Assembly (NCBI RefSeq): GCF_019931275.1
Contig: NZ_JAIOTY010000002.1
Location: forward strand, 1,452,631 to 1,516,630
Length of the DNA: 64,000 nucleotides
Direction of reading: 5' to 3'
DNA from: Nitratidesulfovibrio sp. SRB-5
Lineage (GTDB): Bacteria > Desulfobacterota > Desulfovibrionia > Desulfovibrionales > Desulfovibrionaceae
The notes under the pieces are model-generated. The model searched no databases. It was given only the letters and a program-made list of their open reading frames with translations, and was not told where the DNA came from. The position numbers and the translations under genes are program-made. Positions 5,488 through 64,000 of the stretch are shown here, piece by piece; position 1 is the stretch's first letter, and each line of letters opens with the position of its first letter.

Positions 5488-6321
5488 CTACTTGATGCCC
5501 GCCCGCATGAACGACTGCACGAACTGCCGCTGGAACAGCAGAAAGCCGATCAGCAGCGGGCCGGAGGTCATCAGCGTGGCCGCCGTGATGATCGACCAGT
5601 CCACCCCCTGTTCGGTGGACGAGAACACCTGCAAGCCAACGGTAAGCGGGCGCGAATTGGTGGTGTTGGTGACGATGAGCGGCCACAGGAAGTTGTTCCA
5701 GTGGTAGCTGACCGAAACTAGGGCGTAGGCCAGGTACACCGGCTTGCCCAGCGGCACGTAGACCTTCCAGAGTATTTGCAGGGTGCTGGCGCCTTCCACG
5801 GCGGCGGCCTCGTCCAGTTCCTTCGGTATGCTTTTGAAGGTCTGGCGCAGCAGAAAAATGCCGAAGGCCGACGCCATGTACGGCAGGCCGATGGCCAGCG
5901 TGGAATCCAGCACGCCGATGGCCGACATGGTGCGGTAGTTTTCCACCACCAGCACGTCGGGCATGATCATCAGTTGCATCAGCACCAGCGCGAACAATAT
6001 GCCCTTGCCGGGAAAGTCGTACTTGGCGAAGGCGTAGGCCGCCAGCGTGCACAGCACCAGTTGTCCGGCCAGCACCATGGTCACCAGCAGCACGGTGTTG
6101 ACCAGGTAGCGGGCAAAGGGGGCCGCGTCCCACGCCGCGCGAAAGTTATCCAGCGTCAACGGCGCGGCGAGCGTGAACCGGGTGGAAAATTCCGAGGGGT
6201 GAAAGGCCGTCCATACGGCGTACAGCAGCGGCAGCGCCCACAGCACGGCCAGTGTCCAGGCGGCGGCGGTGTCCAGCACGCGGGCAAGGCCCCGGCTGTC
6301 GTAAATGTTGGTCTGGCTCAT
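5488..6321 (-). CDS. ABC transporter permease, CUT1/UgpE-MalG type
   Basis: A 277-residue inner-membrane protein with about six hydrophobic segments. The cytoplasmic EAA loop, which docks on the ATPase, is visible as ELDEAAAVEGASTLQILWKV. Size and motif match the UgpE/MalG class of importers for sugars and glycerol phosphates. Its ATG at 6321 overlaps the stop of the upstream permease by four bases (ATGA), so the two subunits are translationally coupled. It would form the membrane channel with the 6318-7211 product. Confidence 0.9.
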   Translation of the reverse strand: MSQTNIYDSRGLARVLDTAAAWTLAVLWALPLLYAVWTAFHPSEFSTRFTLAAPLTLDNFRAAWDAAPFARYLVNTVLLVTMVLAGQLVLCTLAAYAFAKYDFPGKGILFALVLMQLMIMPDVLVVENYRTMSAIGVLDSTLAIGLPYMASAFGIFLLRQTFKSIPKELDEAAAVEGASTLQILWKVYVPLGKPVYLAYALVSVSYHWNNFLWPLIVTNTTNSRPLTVGLQVFSSTEQGVDWSIITAATLMTSGPLLIGFLLFQRQFVQSFMRAGIK

Positions 6322-7211
6322 CTGTAGTGCACCTTGCGATCGAGAAAGCCGAACTGGCCGATGGAGGCCAGCGCCAGAAAGCCCAGCAGCACCATGGTCA
6401 GCGCCGCGCCGTAGCCGGTATCCCAGTATTTGAAGCTGACTTCGTAGATGTAGTAGAGCAGCAGCGAGCTGGCGTTGTTGGGGCCGCCCTGGGTAAGCAC
6501 GAACAGGTGGTCCACCATGCGGAAGGCGTTGATGGTGGCGTTCACCAGCACGAACAGGGTGGTGGGCATCAGCAGCGGTATGACCACCCGGCGGTAGTAG
6601 TATAGGCGTGACGCCCCCTCCAGCATGGCCGCCTCGCCCAGTGAAGGCGGTATCTGCTGCAATGCCGCAAGATAGAAGATCATGAAGAAGCCCGCATCCT
6701 TCCACACCGCAACGGCGATGACGCACGGCAGCGCCGTGGATTCGCTGCCCAGCCAGTTCACCCCGGCAAGGCCCAGCGCCCCGCGAATCTGCTCCAGCAG
6801 GCCGTATTCCGGCGTGTAGAAGAACAGCCAGATGTTGGCCACCGCGATCATGGGCAGCACCGTGGGCACGAAGTAGCACAGCCGCAGCACCGACTGCCCG
6901 GCCAGCCCCGCGTTGACCAGAAAGGCCATGGTCATGGCCAGCCCGATGGACAGCGGAATGGTGCCGCTGGCGAACAGCAGGTTGTTCACCAGCGCCTTGC
7001 GGAACACCTCGTCCTCCAGCAGGTACTGGTAGTGCTCCAGCCCCACGAACTGCGCGGGCGCGCCGCCCCGTCCATCCAGAAAGAAGCTGTGGATGAAGGT
7101 GTTCACCGCCGGGTAGTGGGTGAACGCGGCGATGAACGCCAGGGCGGGCAGCAGCAGGAGCCAGGCGTGGATGGTGCGCATGGTGGCGTGGCTGCGGAAG
7201 GCTGGGGGCAC
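6318..7211 (-). CDS. ABC transporter permease, CUT1/UgpA-MalF type
   Basis: A 297-residue permease with about six membrane helices and the EAA loop SLGEAAMLEGASRLYYYRRV. I place the start at GTG 7211 because GGAGGT sits 5 bases upstream; the ATG at 7181 has no such site. The open frame extends further upstream, but only through a tandem-repeat array (7223-7307), which is not credible coding sequence. It follows the binding-protein gene after a 291-base gap. The usual partner is the UgpE/MalG-like gene that overlaps its end. Confidence 0.88.
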   Translation of the reverse strand: MPPAFRSHATMRTIHAWLLLLPALAFIAAFTHYPAVNTFIHSFFLDGRGGAPAQFVGLEHYQYLLEDEVFRKALVNNLLFASGTIPLSIGLAMTMAFLVNAGLAGQSVLRLCYFVPTVLPMIAVANIWLFFYTPEYGLLEQIRGALGLAGVNWLGSESTALPCVIAVAVWKDAGFFMIFYLAALQQIPPSLGEAAMLEGASRLYYYRRVVIPLLMPTTLFVLVNATINAFRMVDHLFVLTQGGPNNASSLLLYYIYEVSFKYWDTGYGAALTMVLLGFLALASIGQFGFLDRKVHYR

Positions 7212-58815: not shown

Positions 58816-59763
58816 GTGCCGCGTAACGCAGACATCTGGATGAACGGGGCCGTTCACGGCCCATCCCCGTTTTCAGACCGGGTAGCGGCGCAAGCCGCCC
58901 CGCACCGGAACCACGACGTGCAGCAGGGCAACATCAGACAGGCACCGCAGGACCATGCGGGCGGCAGGGACGCGGCGGACATGCCGCGCTCCGGCGCAGA
59001 CCCGCGTGACGGGTCGCGTCCGGCTGAACAGGCCCGACCGGTTGATTCGGCCCGACAGGCAAATCCCGCCCGACAGGCAAATCCGGCCCGACCGGCAATT
59101 TCGGCGCTGGCGGGGCCTGGCCCCATGGTGCCCGTGCGCAGGCTGCTGGCCCTGACCCTGGGTGACGAACGCTTTGCCCTCGACATCGGCGTGGTGCGCG
59201 AGGTGCTGGACTTCGGCGAACTGACGCGCATTCCCCGCATGCCGCAATATGTGCGCGGGGTTGTGAACCTGCGCGGGGCAGCCGTGCCGGTGGTGGACCT
59301 GCGTACCCGGCTCGGCATGGGCAACGTTGCGCGCACCGTGCATTCGCGCATCGTCATCGTGGAGGTGCCCGCCCCCCCTGATGCGGGCGGCGGCATCACC
59401 CTGGTGGGCGCGCTGGCCGACGCCGTGCGCGAGGTCATCGAAATCGAGGCCGTCGCCGTGGAACCCCCGCCGCGCATGGGCACCCCCGTGCCCGCAGACG
59501 TGCTGGCCGGGATATTCCGCCACGAGGGGCGGCACGTGCTGCTGCTGGACGCAGACCGCCTGTTCGACGACGAGGAGCCTTCGGGCACCCCGGTGCCCAC
59601 GCTTCCCCAATCCGTGCTCCCATCACCGCTTCCGTCCCAGCCCCGGAACCCGTCCCGCCCCCTTGCCGAGGGGCAGGCCGCCGACGGGCTGCCGCACGCC
59701 CGTCCGGCCGCTGCCGACGGCGCGCCGGGCGCTCCCGCCCGCTTTGGCGGAGGTGGCGCATGA
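58816..59763 (+). CDS. cheW: CheW-like chemotaxis coupling protein
   Basis: A protein of up to 315 residues whose middle (residues about 105-250) is a CheW domain: LLALTLGDERFALDIGVVREV, IPRMPQYVRGVVNLRGAAVPVVDLR in sequence, and the C-terminal LLLDADRLF. CheW couples receptors to CheA. The domain is flanked by about 100 low-complexity N-terminal residues, including a duplicated ARQANP encoded by an 18-bp repeat, and a Pro-rich C-terminus, making it twice normal size. The start is uncertain: GTG 58816, ATG 58840 and ATG 58981 are all in frame and none has a strong ribosome-binding site. Its end overlaps cheA by ATGA. Confidence 0.85.
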   Translation: MPRNADIWMNGAVHGPSPFSDRVAAQAAPHRNHDVQQGNIRQAPQDHAGGRDAADMPRSGADPRDGSRPAEQARPVDSARQANPARQANPARPAISALAGPGPMVPVRRLLALTLGDERFALDIGVVREVLDFGELTRIPRMPQYVRGVVNLRGAAVPVVDLRTRLGMGNVARTVHSRIVIVEVPAPPDAGGGITLVGALADAVREVIEIEAVAVEPPPRMGTPVPADVLAGIFRHEGRHVLLLDADRLFDDEEPSGTPVPTLPQSVLPSPLPSQPRNPSRPLAEGQAADGLPHARPAAADGAPGAPARFGGGGA

Positions 59764-62144
59764 ACCCCGGCGGCACCGCACGGCGCGTGTTCACCGAAGA
59801 AGCGCGCGACCTGCTCATCGACCTTGAGGAAGCGCTGCTGGAGCTTGAATCGCACCCCGGTGATGTCGCGCTCATGGCGCGGGTGTTCCGGGCGCTGCAT
59901 ACCCTGAAGGGCACCGGCGCCATGTTCGGCTTCGATGCCGTGGCCCGTTTCACCCATGCGGTTGAAGACCTGTTCGACAGCGTGCGCAAGGCCGGGGTTC
60001 CGGCCACGTCCGAACTGCTGGCCCTTGGCCTGGACGCCAAGGACCACTTGCAGGAACTGCTGGAACGGGGGGCGTCGGACCCGGTTGCGGGGAAAACCCC
60101 GTCTGCCGACAGGGCGGAAGATGCTGCCGATGCGGACGGCGTAGCCGCGCGCGAGCGTGCACTGCTGGAGCGCATCGGTGGACTGGCGGCGCGGTGGGCC
60201 GCGCCTGCCGTTGCTCCAGGCACCTTTGCTGCCTCTTCCGGGGGGAGGGATGACGATGCCGCCGGTGCGGCAGAGACCTCGCCCAGCGCGCTGGCGCAAG
60301 ATTTTTCCACGGCCTTGCCGGAGGTCGGCCTTTCACCGGACGAGTCCACCCCCTCGGAGCCGTCCGCCGTCTCCGGCGGATATTTCCGCGAACCCCGGGT
60401 GTACTGGCTGCGTTACACCCCGTCGCCCGACGCGTTGCGCCGGGGGCTGGACCCTTCCCGGTTGCTGGACGGGCTGCGCGGGCTTGGCCCCCTGCATGTC
60501 TGGCCCCATTGCGAAACCGTGCCCGGACTGGACGGGCTGGACGCGGAAGCGGTGCACCTGCGCTGGGACGCCGTGCTGGTCACGGAACATCCGGTGGACA
60601 TGGTGCGCGAGCCGTTCGTCGCGCTGCTGGACGAGGCCGGGCTGGAGGTTGCGGCGCTGGGCGAGGAGAGGCTGCTGCCTTCGCCGGAGCTTTTGTGCCG
60701 CATCGCGGCCCAGGGACGTGTTGCCGATGCCGTCGGCCTGCTGGAAGCCGCCGATGCGGGCGACGAGGCCCTGCGCGCGGTGCGCGGACAGGGCACCCGT
60801 GGGGAAGGCGGCGATGCTTCGGCTGCATCCGGTGGCCAGCCAGGCGCCGCATCTTCCCGGACGTCTTCTCGAACTGTTCCGTCGGCGCCTGCCGTTGTCC
60901 CCGCGTCGTGGCCGGTGCCGGAATGCGCCCCGCCTGCGGGTGACGATGCCGCTCCGGCGGGCACCCTGCGCCCCGGCGGTGACGAAGGCGCCACCACCAG
61001 CCTGCGCGTGGACAGCGCCAAGGTGGACCGTCTGCTGGACAACGTGGGCGAACTGGTCATCCTGCAGGCCCGCCTGTCGCGCATCGCCACCGACCACGAC
61101 GACCCGCGCCTGCGCGAACTGGCCGAAGGGTTGGAACGGCTTACCGAATCGCTGCGAGACAGCACCATGTCGGTGCGCATGGTGCCGCTGGACGCCACCT
61201 TTCACGCCTTCCGGCGGCTGGTGCGCGACCTGGCGGCCCGCCTGGGCAAGGACGTGCGCTTCGTGGCAGAGGGGGGCGAGACGGAACTGGACAAGACCGT
61301 CATCGACCACCTGCGCGACCCCCTGCTGCATCTGGTGCGCAACGCCATGGATCACGGAGTGGAACCCGCCGCCGTGCGCCTGGCGGCGGGCAAGCCCGCC
61401 GAGGCTGTGTTGCGGCTGTCCGCCGCCCATGCCGGGGGCGAGGTGCTGATTACCGTTTCCGACGACGGCGCGGGCATCGACCTGGACAAGCTGCGCGCCG
61501 TGGGCGTGGCGCGGGGCCTGCTGGCTCCGGATGCCGACCCCGGCGAGGCGGAACTGCTGCAACTGCTGTTTCTGCCCGGCTTCAGCACGGCCAGCGGCGT
61601 ATCCGACCTTTCCGGGCGCGGGGTGGGGCTGGACGTGGTCAGCACGGCCCTGGGTTCCCTGCGCGGCAGCGTGGACGTGGTCACCCGGCGGGGTGAGGGC
61701 ACGGCCTGGCGGCTGCGCATCCCGCTTACCCTGGCCATCATCGATGGCCTTCGCGTGCGCGTGGGCGACGAGGCGTTCATCCTGCCCCTGACCCAGGTGC
61801 AGGCGTGCCTTGAGCGCTTCGTGGACGGAGAGGCCGCCACGCTGGGTCTCATCGAATACCGCGACCGACTGGTTCCGTGCCTCAGCCTGCGCCGCTTCCT
61901 GGAAGTGCCGGGCGAACAGCCCGCCTACGAGCGGGTGATCATCGCCAACGTGGACGGCCAGCCCGTGGGCTTTGCCGTGGACGGCGTGGCCGGGCTGGAA
62001 CAGGCGGTCATCAAGCGCCTGGGCGGGCCGTGCCGTCGCGCCGCCTGGATTGCCGGGTCCAGCGTGGATGCCGAGGGAGGCATATCGCTGATTCTCGACG
62101 CCGCCCAGTTGGTGCGCGTGGCGCAGGGCATGCAGGAACGCTGA
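59760..62144 (+). CDS. cheA: Chemotaxis histidine kinase CheA
   Basis: A 794-residue CheA. The HPt domain has phosphoacceptor H47 in RALHTLKGTGAMFG. A variable, low-complexity linker includes a region like a P2/response-regulator-binding domain (about 215-330). Dimerisation helices start at DSAKVDRLLDNVGELVILQ, followed by kinase motifs (HLVRNAMDHGVE, DDGAGI, GRGVGLDVV) and a CheW-like regulatory domain at the C-terminus (IDGLRVRVGDEAFILPLTQV). It phosphorylates a CheY/CheB type regulator not encoded here. Together with the receptor and CheW it makes a compact three-gene unit without cheR or cheB. Confidence 0.95.
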   Translation: MNPGGTARRVFTEEARDLLIDLEEALLELESHPGDVALMARVFRALHTLKGTGAMFGFDAVARFTHAVEDLFDSVRKAGVPATSELLALGLDAKDHLQELLERGASDPVAGKTPSADRAEDAADADGVAARERALLERIGGLAARWAAPAVAPGTFAASSGGRDDDAAGAAETSPSALAQDFSTALPEVGLSPDESTPSEPSAVSGGYFREPRVYWLRYTPSPDALRRGLDPSRLLDGLRGLGPLHVWPHCETVPGLDGLDAEAVHLRWDAVLVTEHPVDMVREPFVALLDEAGLEVAALGEERLLPSPELLCRIAAQGRVADAVGLLEAADAGDEALRAVRGQGTRGEGGDASAASGGQPGAASSRTSSRTVPSAPAVVPASWPVPECAPPAGDDAAPAGTLRPGGDEGATTSLRVDSAKVDRLLDNVGELVILQARLSRIATDHDDPRLRELAEGLERLTESLRDSTMSVRMVPLDATFHAFRRLVRDLAARLGKDVRFVAEGGETELDKTVIDHLRDPLLHLVRNAMDHGVEPAAVRLAAGKPAEAVLRLSAAHAGGEVLITVSDDGAGIDLDKLRAVGVARGLLAPDADPGEAELLQLLFLPGFSTASGVSDLSGRGVGLDVVSTALGSLRGSVDVVTRRGEGTAWRLRIPLTLAIIDGLRVRVGDEAFILPLTQVQACLERFVDGEAATLGLIEYRDRLVPCLSLRRFLEVPGEQPAYERVIIANVDGQPVGFAVDGVAGLEQAVIKRLGGPCRRAAWIAGSSVDAEGGISLILDAAQLVRVAQGMQER

Positions 62145-62192
62145 TCAGCGCTTTAGTCCGTCCCGCCCCGCCAGCCGCACGCCGCCGCCCCA

Positions 62193-62233
62193 CCCGTCCC
62201 GCCCCACCCGTCCCGCCCCACCCGTCCCGCCCT
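62193..62233. repeat. 14-bp repeat, three copies
   Basis: cccgtcccgcccca repeated head to tail after cheA, the last unit one base short. Confidence 0.88.
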
Positions 62234-62251
62234 GACCGGTGGGGCTTTTTC
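62229..62251 (+). terminator. Weak terminator after cheA
   Basis: A short GCCC/GGGC stem around an ACCGGT-containing loop followed by TTTTT, 85 bases after the cheA stop. Confidence 0.5.
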
Positions 62252-62365
62252 GTCAGTTACCTTTTTTCTCCCCATGTTCACAGCTCCGCAGCGTGATTCG
62301 CACGCCGTGGCCGAGCGTGTTCGGCCGTTGTCCATGCTTCGGCGCTGCCCGGCGGCATTTCGTGC

Positions 62366-62785
62366 GTCACGACGTTGTCCTGTTACGCGCTTTGCCTTGC
62401 CTTTGCTCCGGGGCGTGTACGGACGGGCGCGGATATGCGTGATGCCCGGCGCATTGCCTGCGCCATGGAACAGCCTTGAAGCATGGGGGGCATCGTCGGG
62501 CATTACCCGTTACACGGCGATGTCCATTTGGCGGAATTGTTCGATCAGGAAGCGCGAACGGCCATGGCAGGCTCGGCCAGCCTGTAGGGCATCACCGGCG
62601 CATGAGCCCGCCGCACGACCTCATTCCGCATACGCATGCACATATTCCCAGCCAACACCGGGCTTGCGATGGCGCTTGTCGTCCGTAATGCGGTGGCCGG
62701 GATCGACGATCCGCTTCGGTGTCGTGATGTCCAGGTGTGGCATCGCCTGGTTGTTCGCAAGGGTGGCGTCGTATCGGAATACGTT
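62366..62785 (-). pseudogene. Degraded IS481-family transposase
   Basis: Two out-of-frame pieces match different parts of an IS481/rve-type DDE transposase. The first (about 62785-62624) reads PHLDITTPKRIVDPGHRI then GVGWEYVHAYAE, the region before the first catalytic Asp. The second (62503-62366) reads VMPDDAPHASRLF then THIRARPYTPRSKGKAKR, equal to the usual VMTDNG and HIRTRPYTPKTNGKAER. Stops and frameshifts lie between them and no complete N-terminus or inverted repeats are seen. It is an old, inactive fragment. Confidence 0.75.
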
Positions 62786-62794
62786 GCTAAGGGC

Positions 62795-63110
62795 GCATAA
62801 AAATTTTTTTGCTGATTTTGTGTGATGTCTGTGGGTATGGATAGACTCTTGCTCTTCGTTTGTGAGATGGATATGCATTATGCATCGATTTTTAAATATA
62901 TCTGTGTGGTTTGATTTTGTTTTGTTGAAAATGCAATGAATATTTTATTGTTATTATAATGCATCAATAAGTCATGCATTCTACAAAATTTGAAACATGT
63001 ATATAAAATATATATTGCTTATGTTCATTTTGTTGCTTTAATGCGTGGTGCATTAAAAAAGTTTTAATGTTGCGCTAGGTAAATAATTTCCTCTCGACGG
63101 CTGGTCGTCA
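62795..63110. other. AT-rich island with recurrent TGCAT motifs
   Basis: About 300 bases of strongly AT-rich DNA in an otherwise GC-rich window, with repeated atgcat/tgcatt motifs (62874-62887, 62959-62985, 63043-63056) and A/T runs. No frame of note. It could be an unshared remnant of mobile DNA, a nucleoid-protein binding region or a promoter region for the lipoprotein gene. Confidence 0.6.
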
Positions 63111-63392
63111 ATTTGGCATTGCTGTTCGTGTTTGCACGGTTTGCAGCGGTTACTGTTGCTTGGGGGCTCCTGATTGCCTGTCGGTTTTCCTGTGGACAAG
63201 CTGTCGAAGCAGTACAGTTGTCCATATGGCTTGTGCCGCGCGCTTGCATGAAGGCCAAGGATCTGTCGAATACGATCCGGGGTGCGTTGTTGTTCTGGTG
63301 TGTGACGCGCAAATTCGTCTGGCGGCTGCGACATCCCCCTCTCTCATGGCAGAGTCACTTTTCTTGTGAACGAACAAACCCAAGGGTAGCGC

Positions 63393-64000
63393 ATGACTGG
63401 TGTTAAAACGGCAATTATCGTGTCGCTTTTGGTGGTGTCGTTGGGCGCGACCGGGTGTGTGCATGTTCTCGACCCTGCGTATGACCGACAGAGCGATTAT
63501 GATGACGGCTATGATGATGGCTATGCGGACTATGATCGCCGTCTGCAGGATGCCTACGATCGCGAGCGGGCCCGCCGTTTGGAATTGGAACGCCGTGCCG
63601 TCACGCAGGACCGTCAGCGCCTGGAGGTCGCGCGTCTGGAGTGGGAACGCCAGGAACAGGCCCGCATGAAGCGCGAGCGCGACCGCATTAGGCAGGAGTT
63701 GCAGCGCCGGGAAGAGCAGCGGCGGGAAGAGCAGCGCAGGGAAGAACACCGCCGGGAAGAGCAGCGCAGGGAAGAACACCGCCGGGAAGAACAGCGGCGG
63801 GAAGAACACCGCAAGGAAGGACAGCGTAAGGAAGAACGGCGCAGGGAAGGGCAACGCAGAGAAGAGCGCCACCAGGAAGGGCAGCGCCGGGAAGAGCACC
63901 GCAAGGAAGGGCAGCGCCGGGAAGAGCACCGCAAGGAAGGGCAGCGCCGGGAAGAGCAACGCCAGGAAGGACAGCGCCAGGAAGGACAGCGCCAGGAAGA
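63393..64000 (+). CDS. Repeat-rich lipoprotein (3' end outside window)
   Basis: An open frame of at least 202 residues running off the window. The N-terminus (MTGVKTAIIVSLLVVSLGATGC) is a lipoprotein signal with Cys22 as probable lipid-attachment site. An Asp/Tyr-rich segment (SDYDDGYDDGYADYDRRL) follows, then Arg/Glu-rich helix, then about 20 pentapeptide repeats (QRREE, HRREE, HRKEG type) from residue 104 onwards. AAGGG lies seven bases before the ATG. The repeats predict a long, highly charged helix reaching into the periplasm, perhaps contacting cell wall or another envelope protein. No family is recognised. Confidence 0.8.
   Translation, partial: MTGVKTAIIVSLLVVSLGATGCVHVLDPAYDRQSDYDDGYDDGYADYDRRLQDAYDRERARRLELERRAVTQDRQRLEVARLEWERQEQARMKRERDRIRQELQRREEQRREEQRREEHRREEQRREEHRREEQRREEHRKEGQRKEERRREGQRREERHQEGQRREEHRKEGQRREEHRKEGQRREEQRQEGQRQEGQRQE
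63702..64000. repeat. 15-bp repeat, about 20 copies, continuing past the window
   Basis: Units of cagcgccgggaagag and variants, five codons each. First-half units differ more from each other; units near the window end alternate two nearly identical types, suggesting recent duplication of a 30-bp pair. Confidence 0.95.

Follow-up and report, generated by a model that had tools for sequence, protein, structure and literature searches.

What does a bacterial lipoprotein gain from a long tail of charged five-residue repeats? The question is raised by a gene at the end of a 64,000-nucleotide stretch of the Nitratidesulfovibrio sp. SRB-5 genome (the window; contig NZ_JAIOTY010000002.1, G000:C2:1452631-1516630 in the parent genome). 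A sequence-only reading of the window had described a lipoprotein signal followed by a charged helix and had proposed that the protein could act as an envelope ruler. Our analysis points to a different role. We give a probability of about 0.45 to a reading in which the gene belongs to an undescribed family of envelope lipoproteins that spreads laterally and combines a conserved helical module with a mostly cationic tail selected for its composition. The relatives are scattered over few genera and carry different tails, and for this reason we favour a renewable charged stalk over a measuring rod.

Gene and protein architecture

The gene runs across the window edge, and the locus numbering used here (L004) extends beyond the window. 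The reading frame from the ATG at 63393 stays intact past the edge and closes at a normal stop after 247 bases (L004:2393-3247, 284 residues), so the early stop or frameshift that the sequence-only reading had allowed for just beyond the edge did not occur. The gene and its parts within the window are as follows.

63382..63386, + strand: ribosome-binding-site-like AAGGG, 6 bases ahead of the ATG (from sequence)
63393..64000, + strand: lipoprotein gene, 5' part, with 202 of the 284 codons in the window and the remaining 247 bases reaching G000:C2 1516877
63393..63458, + strand: lipoprotein signal, residues 1-22, MTGVKTAIIVSLLVVSLGATGC, with a GATG/C lipobox and Cys22 (read by eye)
63459..63530, + strand: Asp/Tyr-rich stretch, residues 23-46, of the DYDDGYDDGYADYD type, with Y40 and D41
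63531..63701, + strand: conserved Arg/Glu helix core, residues 47-103, which holds the invariant residues
63702..64000, + strand: pentad array [QHR]R[RKQ]E[EG], units 1-20 of 26, continuing to L004:3091

The signal has the sequence features of a bacterial lipoprotein, namely an N-terminal positive residue, a hydrophobic stretch and a lipobox Cys, all read by eye. The Cys is aligned in 12 of 14 family members, which upholds the lipoprotein signal claimed earlier. The core is rich in Arg and Glu with scattered Leu, Val and Trp. The array (residues 104-233) is followed by a short Gln/Arg segment (residues 234-243) and a C-terminal segment rich in Pro, Gln and Lys (residues 244-284). Residues 104-243 contain no hydrophobic residue.

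The array consists of 26 pentads in a single register with zero indels, and 20 of them begin within the window, in agreement with the at least 20 units counted before. Position 4 is Glu in 26/26 units and position 2 is Arg in 24/26. The earlier description of the repeat is right as to the array itself, with two corrections: the units stop before the C-terminus, and 9/26 carry Gly, at position 5. Tandem Repeats Finder reports a period of 15 with 26.5 copies. At periods of 5, 10 and 20 residues, the tail has a self-identity of 0.51-0.60, where the 99% shuffle limit is 0.31 (best period). A 30-base pair encoding QRREE-HRKEG is present twice, identically, at units 13-16, and the nearly identical 3' pairs noticed earlier are thus real; shifted by 195 bases, a 215-base stretch also aligns with itself (83% identity). 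Of the six frames, the coding frame has the lowest ratio of nonsynonymous to synonymous differences (pN/pS) between units, 0.32, and the others range from 0.45 to 1.82; because the repeat units are related, these values compare frames and are not a formal test. The highest value, 1.82, belongs to the in-phase antisense frame, and on this ground an antisense open reading frame (ORF) of 568 residues (L004:2150-3856) was rejected as a real gene. It is open because of the codon make-up.

A small family with a conserved core

Searches of the Pfam, NCBIfam, PHROGs and PDB sequence libraries assigned neither this protein nor the tested relatives to a family. Three library matches had an expectation value (E) below 0.1, each for one member only (E 0.0078, 0.04 and 0.051). 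Relatives were found with the N-terminal 109 residues, which matched 7 other genomes among 119 of the bacterial family at E 6.3e-8 to 2e-13; at E 1, the same query matched 43/119 genomes, its own included. The strong matches share one layout of signal, Asp/Tyr-rich stretch, core and hydrophilic tail. Reading the frames of the 12 weak matches with loci (L014-L025) and of a weak match in G114:C1 (L059) placed them all outside the family.

At E 0.01, a nine-row profile of the core matched 18/288 genomes; in 13 the match reached <=3.5e-11. It recovered loci absent from the profile itself, in G126 (1.6e-16), G204 (two loci), G200, G199 and G168 (3.5e-11). The weakly matching genomes G054, G284, G238 and G154 were rejected as lying outside the family. 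A 14-row profile at E 1e-4 found 15 loci in 13/348 genomes of the order, representing 5/59 genera, and across 395 genomes drawn from the phylum it matched this genome alone. As a control, the core profile was reversed, which keeps its composition; it matched 3/285 genomes at E 0.01, the best at 0.003. By sequence, then, this is a small family new to the Pfam, NCBIfam, PHROGs and PDB sequence libraries. A narrow literature search found no paper on such a low-complexity, arginine-rich lipoprotein mentioning Desulfovibrio.

Some loci depart from the common form. The copy in G168 (L091) is broken by a frameshift and a stop, which could be decay or an assembly error; it is counted as a locus and excluded from the 14-row alignments. 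A probable member in G068 (L073; E 7.4e-4) has lost its start at a contig end, has a tail of RHE[QP]Q pentads and is excluded from all counts. In the G114 protein (L052:7457-8539), three tandem stretches match the core profile.

A contig scan with a narrow pattern gave four loci. Three are in metagenome-assembled genomes titled Desulfovibrio sp. or Deltaproteobacteria, and the fourth (L085) is on contig BNUC01000105.1, titled Betaproteobacteria bacterium MS502-56. L085 is an intact member of 203 residues with the aligned lipobox Cys; it lies outside the 14-row alignments. Within 4 kb of it are smpB, rnfH and efp, which clear their NCBIfam cut-offs; nearby genes of RatA-like and partial EarP-like type score below theirs. 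We take this set of neighbours to be betaproteobacterial. The contig prefix lies in the BNTM01-BOCE01 range given for single-cell genomes from the gut of Reticulitermes speratus.

In the alignments, the conserved part of the protein is a core of about 55 residues, which the sequence-only reading had not singled out. Y40 and D41 and, in the core, R59, E66, A69, R74, R81, W84 and E85 are invariant in 14/14 members; E88 and R91 are invariant in one alignment and above 90% in another. All 14 aligned members have the core invariants preceded by an Asp/Tyr-rich stretch. The ratio of nonsynonymous to synonymous substitution rates (dN/dS) of the core is below 1 in 7/7 pairs (0.10-0.81), four of which share members.

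A varying, mostly cationic tail

The tails are 84-250 residues long, excluding L057, whose tail is incomplete at a contig end. Their net charge is positive in 12/14 members. Hydrophobic residues make up 2-13% of the tail in 13/14 members and 19% in L052, and Pro and Gly together reach 27/132 residues (L054). Tail dN/dS is 0.33-0.57 in 6/6 computable pairs; one pair is saturated. In 9/14 members, tail repetitiveness exceeds the 99% shuffle limit, with the strongest periods (in residues) at 10 and 5 (L004), 15 and 14 (L086), 20 and 10 (L088), 26 and 14 (L051), 5 (L052), 14 (L055, which exceeds the limit only just), 13 (L089), 12 and 4 (L056) and 29 (L058). The repeat units differ between members, for example QRREE in L004, EQQQR in L052, DDRR in L056 and QERQRQQERERERQTQQKRD in L088, and some of the periods recur.

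Predicted structure and helix chemistry

AlphaFold2, run with nine sequences, predicts helices at residues 2-24, 42-157 and 168-245 of this protein; the charged helix claimed earlier therefore stands as a prediction. Averaged over ten residues at a time, the predicted local distance difference test score (pLDDT) reaches 93-98 in residues 51-100 and 94-97 in 101-140, drops to 43-60 for 151-180, is 80-94 for 181-240 and falls to 43-47 past residue 250. The break in the helix at about residues 158-167 is of low confidence. Residues 251-272 and 274-284 have pLDDT below 50 and no structure. For the relative L051 (14 sequences), the core is again a predicted helix (residues 52-114, pLDDT 86-97); its tail has a weak helix at 179-201 and is otherwise unstructured.

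The best helix stabilisers are pairs between residues i and i+4. The array instead favours i to i+3, where Glu-then-Arg pairs number 37 as compared to 16.5 in shuffles (z 7.7) and repulsions 6 as compared to 32.6. At i+4, there are 21 attractive and 39-40 repulsive pairs, and Arg-then-Glu is disfavoured (z -5.7). An ideal E4R4 repeat of 130 residues would have 126 attractive i+4 pairs, against the 21 of this array. The core has a partial heptad, with Leu, Val, Leu and Trp at positions 63, 70, 77 and 84. A straight helix of 204 residues would be approximately 31 nm long at the usual rise of 0.15 nm, by arithmetic.

Comparison with known proteins

Braun's lipoprotein, Lpp, is built of coiled-coil heptads and has a C-terminal Lys for linkage to peptidoglycan. 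The protein resembles Lpp in being a putative lipoprotein with a predicted helical body in the periplasm. Unlike Lpp, it has an array without the hydrophobic stripe of coiled-coil heptads, is far longer, ends in PRQQ rather than in Lys and has no Pfam match. In Lpp and in lengthened Lpp variants, a distance can be set by how long the helix is (excerpt of PMC8824477). The likeness to domain II of TolA and TonB lies in the long helical or Pro-rich segment, with a secondary structure that differs between relatives; domain II of TolA is helical in some forms and Pro-rich in others (excerpt of PMC12204202), and a spanning role without a fixed fold therefore has a precedent. TolA and TonB have end domains, an N-terminal transmembrane helix and a globular C-terminal domain, whereas this protein has a lipobox, no recognisable end domain and no Pfam match.

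Charged single α-helix (SAH) domains, as excerpts of PMC5347031 and PMC5812594 describe them, come close in composition: the array is rich in Arg and Glu, lacks hydrophobic residues and is predicted to form a long helix. The designed SAH model repeats in the former excerpt are 7 residues long; the period of 5 found here gives i+3 rather than i+4 pairing and includes Gly. The protein thus has the long charged run, without a hydrophobic stripe and predicted to be helical, of an SAH domain; i+4 salt bridges do not predominate, and there are 9 Gly in 130 residues. Pentapeptide-repeat proteins, which we take to be those of PF00805 with a motif different from that of this array, have only the five-residue period in common with it, and membership was rejected as there was no Pfam match at E 1.

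Interpretation

In the favoured reading, a lipid anchor, probably set in the outer membrane, would hold the conserved helix near the membrane, where the helix could bind a partner or self-pair through its Leu/Trp positions. The tail, a polyampholyte that is mostly net-positive, would extend across the periplasm or to the outside of the cell, and its partners may be polyanions such as peptidoglycan, lipopolysaccharide or a host surface. Charge and hydrophilicity of the tail would be under selection, with its sequence and exact length only loosely constrained. The tail of this member is predicted to be largely helical, and the Pro/Gln/Lys end could serve as an extended tether. The fixed Asp/Tyr stretch and helix, together with a varying hydrophilic tail, argue for a tethered charged polymer on a binding module and not for a rod. 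Lateral movement is suggested by the presence of the gene in one of eight genomes of the genus, by an insertion sequence (IS) relic of the IS481 family next to it, by the transposase neighbour of the G126 homolog (all described below) and by the betaproteobacterial homolog. There is some evidence that the family has moved between phyla.

Several points weigh against this reading. Its whole support comes from sequence and predicted structure, and AlphaFold2 may overrate helices in charged repeats. Both members in G037 lack the Cys and resemble ordinary secreted proteins; the family can therefore do without lipid anchoring. Three tails have charges of +2, -2 and, in the one cut by a contig end, 0; a cationic role is therefore not universal. 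The repetitiveness of 5/14 tails (L053, L054, L087, L090 and L057) is at or below the 99% shuffle limit. The heptad positions of the core are incompletely hydrophobic and its hydrophobic moment in this protein is low, at 0.05 for 100 degrees, which makes core dimerisation a guess. Adjacent genes are never common to different genera and so suggest no pathway. The betaproteobacterial contig may be a chimera or a contamination; as to the former, the method behind these single-cell genomes yields chimeric reads, according to the paper that reports them.

The envelope ruler of the sequence-only reading, in which the pentads make up a single stiff charged helix and so fix how far the membrane lies from another layer, appears unlikely. 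The two long predicted helices, the enrichment of i+3 Glu-then-Arg pairs with depletion of i+3 repulsions and the register unbroken by indels all fit it, and so does TolA domain II, whose helical and Pro-rich segments can each span the periplasm (excerpt of PMC12204202). However, the i+4 pairs are unfavourable, Gly occurs in 9/26 units, the predicted helix is broken and no C-terminal docking domain was found. Tail length and helix propensity vary among relatives, the units differ by lineage and the L051 tail is mostly unstructured. The length of about 31 nm far exceeds the 9.7-10.8 nm between the outer membrane and peptidoglycan of Escherichia coli (excerpt of PMC8824477). These data lend no support to a precise or a conserved rigid ruler. 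We are doubtful, too, about a charged brush displayed at the surface and used in gut communities to touch hosts or neighbours, in which repeat turnover would track varying partners. The sporadic distribution over 5/59 genera of the order, the lineage-specific tail repeats and the homolog with a contig prefix in the R. speratus range would suit such a role, but the gut link comes from that contig, and selection on the tails is purifying rather than diversifying in every pair that could be computed; no surface-export signal was seen by eye, and no program search was aimed at one. That the ORF is spurious or decaying among IS relics, with repeats produced by slippage, is very improbable. It adjoins the IS481 relic and a dispersed repeat and is rare in its genus, yet the frame is intact, with a ribosome-binding-site-like sequence and a signal, the between-unit pN/pS is low, and homologs in other genera have a core dN/dS below 1.

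The family supplies a testable conserved core and natural tail variants (helical, Pro-rich and Gln-rich), which allow one to ask whether sequence, length or only composition is relevant in a cell-envelope polymer. A bolder proposal, which we consider unlikely, would make this a transferable family of gut bacteria, from Desulfovibrionaceae to Betaproteobacteria, with a fixed helical module near the membrane and a tail that each lineage rebuilds from new tandem repeats of its own, used in insect-gut contact. Natural selection would then act on what a polyampholyte tied to the membrane is made of and on its charge, and would leave its sequence and fold free (helix in one member, disordered Pro-rich chain in another). 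If the termite-gut link were true, the gene would have been exchanged between phyla in that habitat.

Genomic setting and mobility

The gene lies between conserved flanks, in an interval that contains remnants of mobile DNA. The features upstream of the gene are as follows.

59760..62144, + strand: cheA (Pfam Hpt, H-kinase_dim, HATPase_c and CheW), conserved flank by synteny
62387..62743, - strand: relic of an IS481-family transposase, residues 133-252, with stops (E 1.8e-13)
62744..63081, no strand: stretch between the transposase relics, largely AT-rich
63082..63132, - strand: relic of the same IS481-family transposase, residues 2-18 (E 0.005 alone; also matched in a separate search)
63218..63378, + strand: degraded copy of an intergenic repeat that is dispersed in this genus, ending just ahead of the ribosome-binding site

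A gene for a methyl-accepting chemotaxis protein (Pfam) accompanies cheA upstream. Downstream, past the window, are a converging EAL-GGDEF-CBS gene (Pfam; L004:3481-5979) and then a histidine kinase gene (by eye). Both are present in 8/8 genomes of the genus, two of which (G001 and G004) are less than 90% complete; the lipoprotein gene is present in 1/8. In five of the seven other genomes, the cheA-EAL interval is about 3 kb, is mutually alignable and contains a LysR regulator and an L-lactate permease (identities from Pfam on one example per gene). The other two have almost nothing there: the aligned flanks are 218 bases apart in G005 and 2 bases apart in G004. The contents of the interval are consistent with arrival or rearrangement via mobile DNA. 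That lysR-lctP was replaced at this locus is a tentative claim: the matches to a lysR remnant are weak (151 bases at 69%; 22 residues at E 0.002) and partly cheA terminator.

The homolog in G126 lies (L086:4205-4861 and 6123-7043) between a gene with a ricin-B-lectin-like domain and, downstream beyond a small frame, an integrase-core transposase gene. Pfam was applied to 20 neighbouring frames of 9 homologs. Two gene pairs are common to different genera and sit kilobases from the homologs; recurring neighbours are confined to genus g20 (L053/L055; L054/L087/L089/L090), and an operon-based function was rejected. A phage or plasmid origin was rejected: tblastn gave no match in phages, PHROGs matched 0/14 members, all plasmid records among the matches listed (20 of 58) hit the cheA part only, and 16 pattern stretches in viral contigs included 0 relatives. 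No known RNA family reached the gathering threshold in 62000-64000.

The dispersed repeat is a mosaic of modules; counting the query and small inverted pieces, 66 pieces of it were matched in this genome. One module, a 52-base end module, is found at 92-96% identity, and weaker pieces occur in other genomes of the genus. One example (G000:C2:883051-883351; L003:1360-1660) lies directly after an IS1595-family transposase gene, a possible link that is not established.

The reference transposase for the IS481 relics matches LZ_Tnp_IS481 and rve in Pfam; the relic at 62387-62743 itself has no Pfam match of note. GC content is 28-29% in windows covering 62801-63100, as compared to about 65-70% farther out. 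The AT-rich stretch is 338 bases long, near the approximately 342 bases missing from the transposase. As it has this length and lies exactly between the two relics, it may be a strongly AT-shifted relic, or else a replacement.
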